From Amycolatopsis regifaucium (GTDB lineage Bacteria > Actinomycetota > Actinomycetes > Mycobacteriales > Pseudonocardiaceae), in assembly GCF_001613935.1 (NCBI RefSeq), contig NZ_LQCI01000045.1:131554-195553 (forward strand): a stretch of DNA of 64,000 nucleotides, given 5' to 3'. Positions 9,271 through 42,069 of the stretch are shown piece by piece (position 1 is the first letter of the stretch; each line of letters opens with the position of its first letter). A program made the position numbers and the translations under genes. The notes under the pieces are model-generated. The model was not told the DNA's origin. It made no database searches and saw only the letters and a program-made list of their open reading frames with translations.

Positions 9271-9290
9271 GGCTTCGGTCCAGTAGTGCC

Positions 9291-9337
9291 ATGAAAGGCC
9301 CCTTCATTGCAAATTTTGCAATGAAGGGGCCTTTCAT
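9291..9337. repeat. family A palindromic repeat, likely terminator after metK
   Basis: Perfect inverted repeat: two 23-bp arms (9291-9313, 9315-9337) around one T. The arm begins ATGAAAGGCCCCTTCATTGC. The centre reads TTGCAAATTTTGCAA, and each arm contains its own near-palindrome TGAAAGGCCCCTTCA. It begins 20 bp after the metK stop and has no T-tract. Related copies are at 14870, 24847, 24944, 25835 and 58371. Confidence 0.9.
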
Positions 9338-9385
9338 TGCACGCGGTGACCGGCCCCGGCGAGCGAGTCTGGTAGAGATCACCGG

Positions 9386-11476: not shown

Positions 11477-11491
11477 TCCCCCGGAAACCCC

Positions 11492-11553
11492 GCATTTCGT
11501 CCTCTAAACGCGTTCCTTGCACACGCAACTACCGCGTTCAGAGGACGAAATGC
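11492..11553. repeat. family B palindromic repeat between convergent priA and a secreted protein gene
   Basis: 21-bp arms 11492-11512 and 11533-11553 with one mismatch. The left arm is GCATTTCGTCCTCTAAACGC plus G. It lies 15 bp after the priA stop and 6 bp after the stop of the minus-strand gene, so it can terminate both. The same GTCCTCT core recurs at 31715 and 42000. Confidence 0.85.
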
Positions 11554-11559
11554 ATGGGG

Positions 11560-12948
11560 TTAGAGGGTTGTGCCGGGGATCGCGAGGATGTCGGCGCGGG
11601 GCGAAGCGCCCGGAGCGGGCGTAGTAGACGGAGCGGGTTTAGTGGCCGGGCCGCCTAGGGCGGCGGTGAGCAGCGTGACGATCTGCGCCGAGATCGCCGC
11701 CCGCCGCGCCTCGAAATCGGCATCGGTCAGCGCCGAGGGATCGGTGGGCGTGCCGAGCACGGGCGTGTGCAGATGCCCGCCCGCGACACCGTCCAGGCCC
11801 AGGCCCGTCCGGAGCCGGTTGCTGCGGTACATGGACTCGTTGGACAGGTAGTTGCCGCCGCCACCGGAAGCCGCGATCTCGCCGGGCTTCGGCGCGTCCG
11901 TCCGGCAGACCGCCGTCCCCGTCCCGGGCTTCGTGCTGTCCGGCCACACACAGAACGCCTGGTTGTACAGCACCTGATACGCCCCGGCGGGCGCCGCGAG
12001 CATCTTTTCGTACGGCAGCGTGGTTTCGATGAACTGGACGGCGGGCTGCGGCCAGCCGGCGGCGGGCGGGACCTGGCCGGTGACGGACTCGTCGAGGTTG
12101 TCCGGGAAACCGCCGCGCCACGCACCGGCCCAGCGCTCGATGTCGAACCGGCCGGGACGGCCCTGGCTGATCGTCATGATCAGTTCCGGGCGGCGGAAGC
12201 GGTCCTTGAACGCCTTGCCGTAGGCCGCCTCCACGATGCCCGCGTCGAAGTAGCTCCACACCACCGGGAACGACACCGCCTGCACCAGCGCGGGGCCGGT
12301 CGGGGTCTGGATCACCTTGCCGTCCAGATGCAGGGCGGCCGCACCCGACGGGTTCGCGATGCGGACGCCCGCGCCGTTGAGGGTGAACGGATCGAAGCCG
12401 CTCACGAGCACCCGGCGCAGCGACGGGCCGAGCGGGAAGCGGGAGTCGTCGAGGCCCCGGGCTCCGACGTCGAACGTCTTCAGCAGCTTCGCCCGGGCGG
12501 GCGCGGACAGCGGGAAGCGCGGCGTCCACTGGCGCAGCGCCTTGCTCATCAGCAGACGCGCCCAGTAGAGCGGCCGGTCGTCGGCCTTGTCGATACCGCC
12601 GAGGTCGGGGCGGCGGCCCTGCGCGCGGTCGACAGCGGTCCGCCAGAGCCCGTCACCGGCGGTTTCCGCGAGCTTCTCGGCCTGCGCGGCGGTTTTCGTG
12701 GCGCAGAGACGGGTCGTGAAGTCGGAGACGAGCCGGTCGAACCCCGCGAGCCGGACCAGTTCCGGGCCGACGGCGGGACCACCGGACGGCAGTGTCGCGG
12801 TGAGGCGCCGTTCCTCGACCGTGATGGCCGCCGAGTCGTCGAAACAGGCCCGCGTGGGTTCGGCCTGCGCGACGCCGGGGACCGCGAGTACGGGAAGGGC
12901 GATGAGCAGCGGGAGGAACGCGCTCCATCGCCTGCCGGGAGTCTTCAT
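11560..12948 (-). CDS. secreted pyroglutamyl-peptidase-I-like (C15) protein with catalytic Cys replaced by Ser
   Basis: 462 residues. A Sec signal peptide (MKTPGRRWSAFLPLLIALPV, cleavage near VAQA at 26-29) leads a secreted protein. The second half resembles peptidase family C15: RVLVSGFDPFTLNGAGVRIA matches the N-terminal VTGFEPF block, and GGNYLSNESMY aligns with the active-site block GTYLCNxxxY. The nucleophile position is Ser369, codon TCC at 11842-11844, instead of Cys. The catalytic His is kept as His394 in AGGHLHTPVL, 25 residues later; the family spacing is 24. The C-terminus is Pro/Thr/Ala-rich. I chose the ATG at 12948, which starts the signal peptide. Activity cannot be assumed. 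Confidence 0.65.
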   Translation of the reverse strand: MKTPGRRWSAFLPLLIALPVLAVPGVAQAEPTRACFDDSAAITVEERRLTATLPSGGPAVGPELVRLAGFDRLVSDFTTRLCATKTAAQAEKLAETAGDGLWRTAVDRAQGRRPDLGGIDKADDRPLYWARLLMSKALRQWTPRFPLSAPARAKLLKTFDVGARGLDDSRFPLGPSLRRVLVSGFDPFTLNGAGVRIANPSGAAALHLDGKVIQTPTGPALVQAVSFPVVWSYFDAGIVEAAYGKAFKDRFRRPELIMTISQGRPGRFDIERWAGAWRGGFPDNLDESVTGQVPPAAGWPQPAVQFIETTLPYEKMLAAPAGAYQVLYNQAFCVWPDSTKPGTGTAVCRTDAPKPGEIAASGGGGNYLSNESMYRSNRLRTGLGLDGVAGGHLHTPVLGTPTDPSALTDADFEARRAAISAQIVTLLTAALGGPATKPAPSTTPAPGASPRADILAIPGTTL

Positions 12949-13010
12949 GGACCGCATTCTGCTCAACGCGATCCCCTCGCACTACCGACCTTCGCCGGTG
13001 CGGACAGGAC

Positions 13011-13045: not shown

Positions 13046-14857
13046 ATGGCCGCGCACAGAAGCACTCTGGGACGCATCACCGCAGTCACCGCGATCGCCG
13101 CTCTGGTCGGTGCCGCCGTGCCGGGCACCGCGGCGGCGGCACCACCGACACCCAAAGCCCCGACCGCCGTCGGCTATCTGGGTGCCGTGTCGAGCATCGA
13201 CGCGGACGCGACCGCGATCGGCACGAAGATCCTGCGTGAGGGCGGCAACGCCGTCGACGCGGCCGTGGCGACCGCCGCCGCGCTCGGCGTCACCGATCCG
13301 TTCTCCGCCGGGTTCGGCGGTGGCGGCTTCTTCGTCTACTACGACGCGCGCTCGGGCAAGGTGCACACCCTCGACGGCCGCGAGACCGCGCCGTCCACCG
13401 CGAACGAGAACCTCTTCGTCGAGAACGGCAAGGCGATCCCGTTCGCCGAAGCCGTCACCAGCGGACTCGGGGTCGGCGTGCCCGGTACGCCCGCCACCTG
13501 GCAGGAAGCCCTGCGCAAGTGGGGGACCAGGTCGCTGGCGAAGGCGGTCAAACCCGCCGAAGACCTCGCCCGCAAGGGCTTCACCGTCGACCAGACCTTC
13601 AACACCCAGATCGCCAACAACGCCGCCCGCTTCTCGGCGTTCCCGTCGACCCGGTCGCTGTACCTGCCCGGCGGCGCGCCGCCCGCGGTCGGATCGACGT
13701 TCAAGAACCCGGACCTGGCTGGCACGTACGCGCAACTCGCCACGAAGGGCACCGACGTCCTCTATCACGGGCCGATCGGCGCGGACGTCGTCAAGACCGT
13801 GCGGACGCCGCCGGTCGACCCCGCTTCGACGCTGAAGGTGCGCCCCGGCGACATGACCGCGGCCGACCTCGCCAAGTACCGCGTCGTGGAGCGCAAGCCG
13901 ACCAGGACCGAGTACCGCGGCCTCGACGTCTACGGCATGCCCGCGCCGTCGTCCGGCGGGCTGACCGTCGGCGAAGCGCTGAACATCCTCGAGAACACGA
14001 ACCTGCGCAAGCTGGAGAAGGCCGACTACCTGCACTACTTCCTGGAGTCGACCCGGCTCGCCTTCGCCGACCGCAACCGGTGGATCGGCGACCCGGCGTT
14101 CGTGGACGTCCCCGCGAAGGAACTGATCAGCCAGAAGTTCGCGAACAGCCGCGCGTGCCTGATCGACCCGGCGAAGGCAGGGACGAGCCCGGTGGCGCCC
14201 GCCGACCCGCGCAAGCCGGCTCCGTGTGTCGCGGGGACGAACGCCGCGCCGACGCCCTACGAGGGCGAGAACACCACGCACCTGACCGTCGCCGACCGGT
14301 GGGGCAACGTCGTCGCCTACACGCTGACCATCGAGCAGGAGGGCGGCAGCGGCATCGTCGTCCCGGGCCGCGGGTTCCTGCTCAACAACGAGCTGACCGA
14401 TTTCTCGTTCACCCCGGTGACGCCGGGTGTGCCCGACCCGAACCTGCCGGGCCCGGCCAAGCGGCCGCGTTCGTCGATGGCGCCGACCATCGTGCTCGAC
14501 CACGGCAAGCCGCTGCTCGCGGTCGGTTCGCCCGGTGGCGCGTCGATCATCACCACGGTGCTGCAGATCCTCACCGGCCGCATCGATCGCGGGCTGAAGC
14601 TGGTCGACGCGATCGCCGAACCGCGCGCTTCGCAGCGGAACTCGGCTGCCGCGCAGGTCGAGCAGGCTTTCCTCGACCAGACCGAGGTGCTCAAGGCGCT
14701 GAAGGCCAAGGGGCAGGGCTTCTCGACGGCGCCCGCGGAGATCGGGGCCGCGACCGGCGTCGAACGGCTGCGGGACGGGCGGTGGCTCGCCGCCGCCGAG
14801 CCCACGCGGCGGGGTGGCGGTTCTGCTGCTGTCGTGCTGCCCTGGCCGCCCCGGTAG
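13046..14857 (+). CDS. ggt: secreted gamma-glutamyltransferase (glutathione hydrolase)
   Basis: 603 residues. Cleaves or transfers gamma-glutamyl groups from glutathione-like substrates outside the cell. Signal peptide at the N-terminus (AVTAIAALVGAAVPGTAAAA). The Ntn-hydrolase autoprocessing site is ENTTHLTVAD, with the nucleophile predicted to be Thr410. Downstream LLAVGSPGGASI is the conserved oxyanion/substrate loop. The start at 13046 is the first codon giving a signal peptide; the frame extension from 12587 overlaps the divergent gene and is rejected. Together with the C15-like neighbour it suggests extracellular handling of gamma-glutamyl or pyroglutamyl peptides (inference). Confidence 0.93.
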   Translation: MAAHRSTLGRITAVTAIAALVGAAVPGTAAAAPPTPKAPTAVGYLGAVSSIDADATAIGTKILREGGNAVDAAVATAAALGVTDPFSAGFGGGGFFVYYDARSGKVHTLDGRETAPSTANENLFVENGKAIPFAEAVTSGLGVGVPGTPATWQEALRKWGTRSLAKAVKPAEDLARKGFTVDQTFNTQIANNAARFSAFPSTRSLYLPGGAPPAVGSTFKNPDLAGTYAQLATKGTDVLYHGPIGADVVKTVRTPPVDPASTLKVRPGDMTAADLAKYRVVERKPTRTEYRGLDVYGMPAPSSGGLTVGEALNILENTNLRKLEKADYLHYFLESTRLAFADRNRWIGDPAFVDVPAKELISQKFANSRACLIDPAKAGTSPVAPADPRKPAPCVAGTNAAPTPYEGENTTHLTVADRWGNVVAYTLTIEQEGGSGIVVPGRGFLLNNELTDFSFTPVTPGVPDPNLPGPAKRPRSSMAPTIVLDHGKPLLAVGSPGGASIITTVLQILTGRIDRGLKLVDAIAEPRASQRNSAAAQVEQAFLDQTEVLKALKAKGQGFSTAPAEIGAATGVERLRDGRWLAAAEPTRRGGGSAAVVLPWPPR

Positions 14858-14869
14858 GTCTTCGCGCGT

Positions 14870-14922
14870 GCCATGAAAGGTCCTTTCCTTGCAAAATTTG
14901 CAAGGAAAGGACCTTTCATGGC
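14870..14922. repeat. family A palindromic repeat, likely terminator after ggt
   Basis: Perfect palindrome with two 26-bp arms around a single A at 14896. The left arm is GCCATGAAAGGTCCTTTCCT followed by TGCAAA; the centre TTGCAAAATTTGCAA matches the 9291 copy. It begins 12 bp after the ggt stop. Confidence 0.9.
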
Positions 14923-14988
14923 GCTCTACGGAGGGGACAGGGAGAGCGACCGCGCCCCGAGACCGAGGCCCTTCTAGACTGAGCGGCG

Positions 14989-24846: not shown

Positions 24847-24899
24847 GCAATGAAGGGGCCTTTCATCGCAAAATTTGGGATGAAAGGCCCCTTCATTGC
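24847..24899. repeat. family A palindromic repeat after the ribH cluster
   Basis: 26-bp arms 24847-24872 and 24874-24899 with one mismatch around a single A. The left arm starts GCAATGAAGGGGCCTTTCAT. It is 15 bp past the stop of the PH-like gene. Confidence 0.88.
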
Positions 24900-24943
24900 G
24901 CGCGGGTCGGGGCAAGGGCTCCGGCTGACCTCCGGCTCACCAA

Positions 24944-31705: not shown

Positions 31706-31714
31706 CCCGCCGCC

Positions 31715-31770
31715 TTTAGTCCTCTGAATGCGGCAGTCGCGCTTGCGTCAATCGCCATCAGAGGACTAAA
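31715..31770. repeat. family B palindromic repeat after whiA
   Basis: 13-bp arms TTTAGTCCTCTGA (31715-31727) and its complement (31758-31770) with a partly self-complementary 30-bp spacer. It starts 9 bp after whiA. Its right arm supplies the stop codon of the decayed minus-strand frame. Confidence 0.75.
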
Positions 31771-32538
31771 CGCGGTGTTCGCCGAAGACGTCACAGGTGG
31801 CCGGGTCGCCGTCGAGAGCGGCGGTGGCCAGCAGGACGGCGCCCGCGGTCCAGGTGGTGCGCTCGTCCGGCCAGAACTCGTCGTCCGCGAACTGATAGCC
31901 GGTCCAGTACGAACCGTCTTCGTGCCGTAGCCGGGCAAGGCACGCGAGGAGTTCGGCGGCGCGCATCCCGCGGCCAACCGCGCGGTGGCGTCGGAACCGG
32001 TCACCACCGAGCCCAGGATCGGGTAGTACCAGTCCATCGCGTGTGGTTTCGCGGCGAACAACCCCGGCTCGCCGATCAGTGCCTCGCGAAGACGGCGAGC
32101 CGAGTTCCGCCACCGTGGACGGCTCAGACCCAGCGAAGCCGTGAGGGCGATCGCCTGGGTCAGCGCGTGATGGATGCTGCTGCACCCGGTGACGAGCCGG
32201 ACGCCGGGGTCGGCCCGCCAGGCGATGGCGCCCGACGACTGCTGTCGCGCGAGGACGGCGTCGATGGCCTTGTCCACCACCGGCCACATCCGCTCCAGGT
32301 ACGCGTGGTCTTCGCGCAGCAGATAGTGGTGCCGGACCCCGACCGCGACGTAGGCGGTGAAGTTCGTGTCCATAGTGGACACACTGATCCCGCCGCCGCG
32401 GTACTCGGCCGCCCACGAGCCGTCGGAACGCTGGTTCCGCGCCAGCCAGTCGTAGGCGGCTTCGGCCTCGGCGTGCAGCCCGGCGACGTCCAGCCCCATG
32501 GCGGCTTCGAGATGGTTCCACGGATCGAGGTGACCACC
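31766..32538 (-). pseudogene. decayed prenyltransferase/squalene-cyclase-like (alpha/alpha toroid) gene
   Basis: Two reading frames together resemble a family of actinobacterial prenyltransferase-like proteins. The upstream frame (32538 to about 31970) reads HLDPWNHLEAAMGLDVAGLH and continues through DGSWAAEY, DTNFTAYVAVGVRHHYL, GCSSIHHAL and AMDWYYPILGSVVTG. The match then jumps to another frame, MRAAELLACLARLRHEDGSY, with TGYQFADDEFWPDERTTWTA to the end. The segment between the two blocks appears shortened, and the N-terminus before HLDPW is missing behind an in-frame TGA. The stop at 31766 lies in the palindromic repeat. Product identity is from recalled family resemblance. Confidence 0.65.
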
Positions 32539-41999: not shown

Positions 42000-42069
42000 G
42001 AACGCGTTTAGTCCTCTGAATGCGGTACTTGCGCGGGCAAGTACCGCATTCAGAGGACTGAACGCGTTC
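42000..42069. repeat. family B palindromic repeat, likely terminator of the PPOX gene
   Basis: 33-bp arms (42000-42032, 42037-42069) with one mismatch and a 4-nt loop GCGG: the longest hairpin in the window. The left arm begins GAACGCGTTTAGTCCTCTGA. It lies 24 bp downstream of the minus-strand PPOX stop. Confidence 0.9.

Follow-up and report, generated by a model that had tools for sequence, protein, structure and literature searches.

A putatively exported relative of pyroglutamyl peptidase I with serine at the nucleophile position in Amycolatopsis regifaucium

We analysed a 64,000-nucleotide stretch of Amycolatopsis regifaucium DNA (hereafter, the window), in which a minus-strand gene (11560–12966) is flanked by priA on one side and by a divergent gamma-glutamyltransferase gene on the other. 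The gene encodes 468 aa from a TTG start codon, and its relatives align over the full length. An alternative in-frame start, the ATG at 12948 (Met7), gives 462 aa; residues are numbered here from the TTG. Residues 7–36 (12859–12948, minus strand) form a Sec-type signal peptide, recognised by eye from its charged start, hydrophobic core (mean Kyte-Doolittle hydropathy of at most 2.6) and AQA/E-like site, in line with the initial annotation of this gene. Hydrophobic N-termini are also seen in relatives. A family-specific region with predicted helices and no other Pfam family (residues 37–180; 12427–12858, minus strand) then precedes the C15-like domain (residues 184–440; 11647–12417, minus strand), which was delimited by hhalign against an alignment of Cys-type C15 enzymes (alignment A4).

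The divergent neighbour (13046–14857, plus strand) matches PF01019 at 499.8 bits. A species-wide scan with the window protein found 14 Amycolatopsis loci, 13 of which show the same pairing; the remaining one (L011) ends too early. As far as seen the linkage is specific to Amycolatopsis, and it is absent from the 54 loci of other genomes (L083–L136). Short gamma-glutamyltransferase matches in L011, L019–L021 and L113 are artefacts of an over-long query ORF and fall within the C15-like gene, on its opposite strand. Because the pairing is local to Amycolatopsis it cannot account for the whole family, and we rejected a functional link to gamma-glutamyltransferase as the family's explanation. Clustering of the neighbours of the 54 loci revealed no other widely recurring gene. 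The largest shared cluster comprises eight of the 54 loci; the recognisable ones share a taxonomic family, and many of the clustered ORFs are probably shadow frames.

The window also contains two kinds of palindromic repeat. Three intergenic copies are of the GCAATGAAGGGGCCTTTCATTGCA type (9288–9341, 14870–14923 and 24847–24900), with two 24-nt inverted arms ∼30 nt apart; one copy lies before priA and one before fmt. The second repeat is ∼64 nt long and likewise present three times (11491–11554, 31711–31774 and 42003–42066). The copy that separates priA from the C15-like gene has a strong predicted hairpin (−44.6 kcal/mol, z −8.95), which may perhaps serve as a two-way terminator.

Profile comparison relates the window protein to pyroglutamyl peptidase I. 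Its sole Pfam match is Peptidase_C15 (PF01470), at 20.2 bits under a cut-off of 22.7, and its NCBIfam TIGR00504 score of 16.2 bits is far under the cut-off of 201.75. Some relatives pass the PF01470 cut-off (e.g., L081 at 33.7 bits and Streptomyces-type loci at 23–25 bits). An ordinary Cys-type C15 enzyme (232 bits), with Cys at the nucleophile position, is encoded separately in the same genome. For the Cys-type reference, 13 canonical matches (strong or partial) were reduced to eight sequences of the same class by setting aside one that contains a stop, both halves of a single gene and two partial matches; all eight aligned sequences carry Cys at the nucleophile. Aligning 27 relatives against these eight with hhalign gave a probability of 96.5% (E 8.5e-10). 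A non-redundant set of 73 members (at least 300 residues, <80% identity; median pairwise identity 45%, minimum 25%) gave 97.2% against the same eight (E 3.5e-11), with a score of 81.4, compared with at most 22.2 for 60 column shuffles of the eight-sequence alignment and 15.2 for the reversed alignment. Both hhalign alignments pair Ser375 with the catalytic Cys, His400 with the catalytic His, Glu277 with the catalytic Glu, and GFDPF with the GFxPF motif. The initial annotation had read the TCC codon at 11842–11844 as a Ser exactly at the C15 nucleophile position, with the catalytic His following 25 residues later, and all of these points hold: GGA on the plus strand reads as TCC on the minus strand, and the encoded Ser375, within GGGGNYLSNESMYR, is residue 369 when counted from Met7 (codon 12946–12948).

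A profile search of the PDB agrees with this assignment. It returned 16 distinct sequences with E values of 1 or lower (best 1.7e-4), all of them named pyrrolidone-carboxylate or pyroglutamyl peptidase, with the Ser and two His-containing motifs aligned where shown. The top-scoring chains carry Ser at the nucleophile; we take these to be engineered variants. A PDB search with the single sequence gave no match. AlphaFold2, supplied with 15 closely related sequences, modelled the mature protein at a mean pLDDT of 46.1 and the isolated domain at 34.1, and was confident in the N-terminal helices only. Since these models are of low confidence for the C15-like domain, the homology rests on the profile comparison.

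Most of the aligned members retain the equivalents of the catalytic residues and of the candidate pocket residues of C15 enzymes. Ser375 (11842–11844), at the position of the catalytic Cys, is Ser in 72 of the 73 non-redundant members and Ala in one. The catalytic Glu equivalent, Glu277 (12136–12138), is Glu in 69 and Asp in one, and the His equivalent, His400 (11767–11769), is present in 70. Phe191 and Phe194 of the GFDPF motif (12385–12396; 73/73 and 66/73, respectively) align with both Phe residues of GFxPF, a pair that lines the pyroglutamyl pocket of Cys-type enzymes. Gln268 (12163–12165) aligns with the Gln of the Cys-type GQAGGR motif and is Gln in 62 members, Arg in nine, Glu in one and Met in one. 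We assume that Phe191, Phe194 and Gln268 have the pocket roles of their counterparts in known C15 enzymes. Other conserved residues are specific to the family: His398 (11773–11775), which stands where Cys-type enzymes have a Phe, is invariant (73/73), and Glu377, Arg381 and a DDRxxYW motif are likewise conserved beyond C15. All of these residues are encoded on the minus strand.

Serine at the nucleophile position is a trait of the family and not an oddity of the window protein. Cys is absent from this position in the non-redundant set and also among 107 distinct segments of at least 150 residues, of which 105 have Ser, one has Ala and one has a gap. The window protein has 21 Ser positions, and just two of them, 375 and 267, reach a conservation of 0.99. 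The complete Glu-Ser-His triad is found in 69 of the 73 members, and one more has Asp-Ser-His. A Cys elsewhere in the protein does not fill the active site: the four Cys residues of the window protein are conserved in 51, 48, 19 and 19% of members, and none falls within the active-site motifs, so we rejected an alternative Cys nucleophile for this protein. The 71 Ser codons read are all TCN, which points to one ancestral Ser; the 72 occurrences are thus not independent events, and the Ser of the family would have arisen once or long ago.

Three members depart from this pattern. L098, L101 and L111, all from one taxonomic family, lack both Glu277 and His400, and in L111 the Ser is missing too. 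As they are mutually related, the losses do not represent three independent events. Nonetheless, loss of Glu and His together is the pattern expected if the triad acts jointly and catalysis is abandoned. These seemingly inactive natural relatives are usable for comparison. The same taxonomic family contains a subgroup (L094, L099, L100 and L102–L110) with Arg for Gln268 and an intact triad, and the altered pocket residue suggests that this subgroup possibly acts on another substrate.

The region upstream of the C15-like domain sets the family apart from Cys-type sequences, which are ∼200 residues long and lack the ∼145 extra residues that bear DDRxxYW. The motif reads DDRPLYW in the window protein (residues 129–135; 12562–12582, minus strand), and D129, D130, R131, Y134 and W135 are each found in 73/73 members. 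AlphaFold2 predicts helices here, some of them with good confidence. When these confident helices were compared with known structures, the matches were only middling (the best, at Z 7.6, is a designed protein); they pointed to no particular fold and may reflect just a commonplace arrangement of helices. We infer that the N-terminal region is part of the active unit, where it probably completes or covers the substrate site.

Of 60 genomes from the same taxonomic family, 24 contain a relative; the corresponding counts are 53 of 394 genomes for the class and five of 198 for the phylum, all five within that class. Eight of 72,556 plasmid records also contain one, from Streptomyces, Kitasatospora, Tsukamurella, Burkholderia, a Comamonadaceae bacterium, Enterobacter and Tenacibaculum (two). 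The viral contigs and phage records searched contained no relative. Members in several phyla are accompanied by export signals or a secretion-system context. Automatic annotation labels some members plain ‘pyroglutamyl peptidase’, which hides the Ser swap.

A secretion-system context is seen in Tenacibaculum finnmarkense (CP116296.1; L080). Here, the domain makes up the C-terminal portion of a protein of 594 residues that is encoded directly downstream of VgrG (Phage_base_V, 72.4 bits), which is itself preceded by an annotated TssD; a DUF4280 gene lies downstream of L080. L080 has Asp in place of the catalytic Glu. A 186-aa ORF overlaps the end of the gene and has a signal peptide (by eye) and no Pfam family. 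In a second strain of the same species the corresponding gene is in pieces. The arrangement suggests that L080 is likely a type VI secretion effector, and the overlapping ORF is a possible, putatively periplasmic immunity protein. Bacteroidota carry N-terminal pyroglutamate on most of their Sec-exported proteins (the Q-rule), and in Porphyromonas gingivalis the cyclase is essential and complete loss of the Q-rule lethal, according to passages of one study (PMC10653852). Judging from the effector layout of this one intact locus, a pyroglutamyl peptidase that is delivered by such a system would find a ready target in these pyroglutamate-capped exported proteins. The Tenacibaculum locus may thus represent a weapon, open to experiment, that acts on capped protein N-termini. 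One could extend this to a serine branch of clan CF that is extracytoplasmic, serving actinobacteria as an exoenzyme and Bacteroidota as a type VI weapon that strips rivals of their protective pyroglutamate caps; we regard so broad a picture as improbable.

We propose, with a probability of about 0.5, that the window gene encodes an exported C15-like hydrolase in which Ser375 is the nucleophile, acting with His400 and Glu277, and that the enzyme most likely removes N-terminal pyroglutamate or a similar cyclic residue. Known C15 enzymes work through a Cys-based acyl-enzyme. In the window protein, Phe191, Phe194 and Gln268 would hold the N-terminal pyroglutamyl residue, and Ser375, activated by His400 and Glu277, would attack its carbonyl; an acyl-enzyme would form on Ser375 and then be released by water. 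The substrates would be extracellular peptides or proteins. Ser would also suit the cell exterior, where a catalytic thiol would become oxidised, although this is reasoning only. Retention of the Ser together with Glu and His in distant relatives argues for an active serine nucleophile. Judged from the sequence alignments, catalytic activity of the window protein is likely, and a pyroglutamyl substrate, if the protein is active, is somewhat favoured.

The serine by itself does not settle the matter. In bacterial C15 enzymes replacement of the Cys by Ser abolishes activity, so Ser alone is insufficient for a working enzyme. The protein could instead be catalytically dead and bind pyroglutamyl peptides in the role of receptor, carrier or inhibitor. 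Cys-to-Ser replacement is a classic inactivating change, and inactive members seem to exist, as L098, L101 and L111 lack Glu and His and one of them the Ser as well. Yet in the non-redundant set (median pairwise identity 45%), 69 of 73 members retain Glu, Ser and His jointly, which is needless for binding, and neighbour clustering found no transporter or sensor gene recurring adjacent to the family across genera. We consider a dead binder unlikely. The initial annotation had offered both a serine-type peptidase and a binding protein; the conserved triad and the joint loss of Glu and His in three members favour the former and speak against the latter.

The family may alternatively consist of active C15-type serine hydrolases that act on something other than pyroglutamyl residues, such as a cell-wall amide or isopeptide, a lactam metabolite or an ester. 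His398, Glu377, Arg381 and DDRxxYW, all specific to the family, are consistent with this, and since the pocket Gln is Arg in nine of the 73 members, Glu in one and Met in one, part of the family may indeed have another substrate. On this view, the Tenacibaculum copy would act on the cell wall from within the periplasm, and the signal peptide (by eye) on the small ORF after it points to a periplasmic target. Most members, however, keep both pocket Phe residues and the pocket Gln, and Pfam shows no wall-binding domain in the four members scanned. We view a different substrate as possible, though not probable, for the family at large. Finally, the gene could be a spurious ORF, as it shares DNA with long antisense ORFs, or the Ser could belong to a single aberrant gene copy. 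Relatives in 24/60 and 53/394 genomes and protein-level conservation down to 25% identity refute both, and we give chance or error practically no weight. Our preferred reading is an exported serine hydrolase that removes N-terminal pyroglutamate or a similar residue.

The closest known system is pyroglutamyl-peptidase I itself (MEROPS C15, clan CF; PF01470, TIGR00504), with which the Ser family shares domain-wide profile homology, the GFxPF motif, the catalytic Glu and His, the N and Y after the nucleophile, and a DN motif. The family differs from C15 in having Ser for Cys, His398 for a Phe two residues ahead of the catalytic His, a signal peptide, ∼145 extra residues at the front with DDRxxYW, and insertions before the nucleophile. 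Because the family is homologous to C15 but lacks the defining Cys, and the window protein scores under the cut-offs of both models, we file it as probably a sister, serine-type branch of C15, distinct from the C15 enzymes themselves; its members may nonetheless act in the same way. The passages of a 2025 review that treat clan CF describe it as a single family with a Glu, Cys, His triad (PMC12445089). If active, the window protein would add a natural thiol-to-hydroxyl swap to a clan described there as cysteine-only, and the many Ser-family sequences would reveal what else changed to make serine work. A search of the open-licence PMC literature found no paper on a serine-type C15 enzyme.

Two further systems can be compared with individual members. 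On the conjugative IncHI2A plasmid pOXA436 (NZ_KY863418.1), an intact family member (L081) with the YLSNE and HIH motifs adjoins blaOXA-436. A ‘peptidase C15’ gene, which may encode the same protein, is named as a flank of blaOXA-48-like genes in Shewanella in a passage that does not mention a Ser (PMC9604219), and L081 was probably carried along from the chromosomal neighbourhood of the blaOXA-436 gene in Shewanella. Similarly, pyroglutamyl-peptidase domains are listed, in a section of Zhang et al. 2012 (PMC3482391), as cargo of PVC-type and polymorphic toxin systems. At the level of the general kind of domain, the Tenacibaculum member fits among this proposed cargo of contractile secretion systems.
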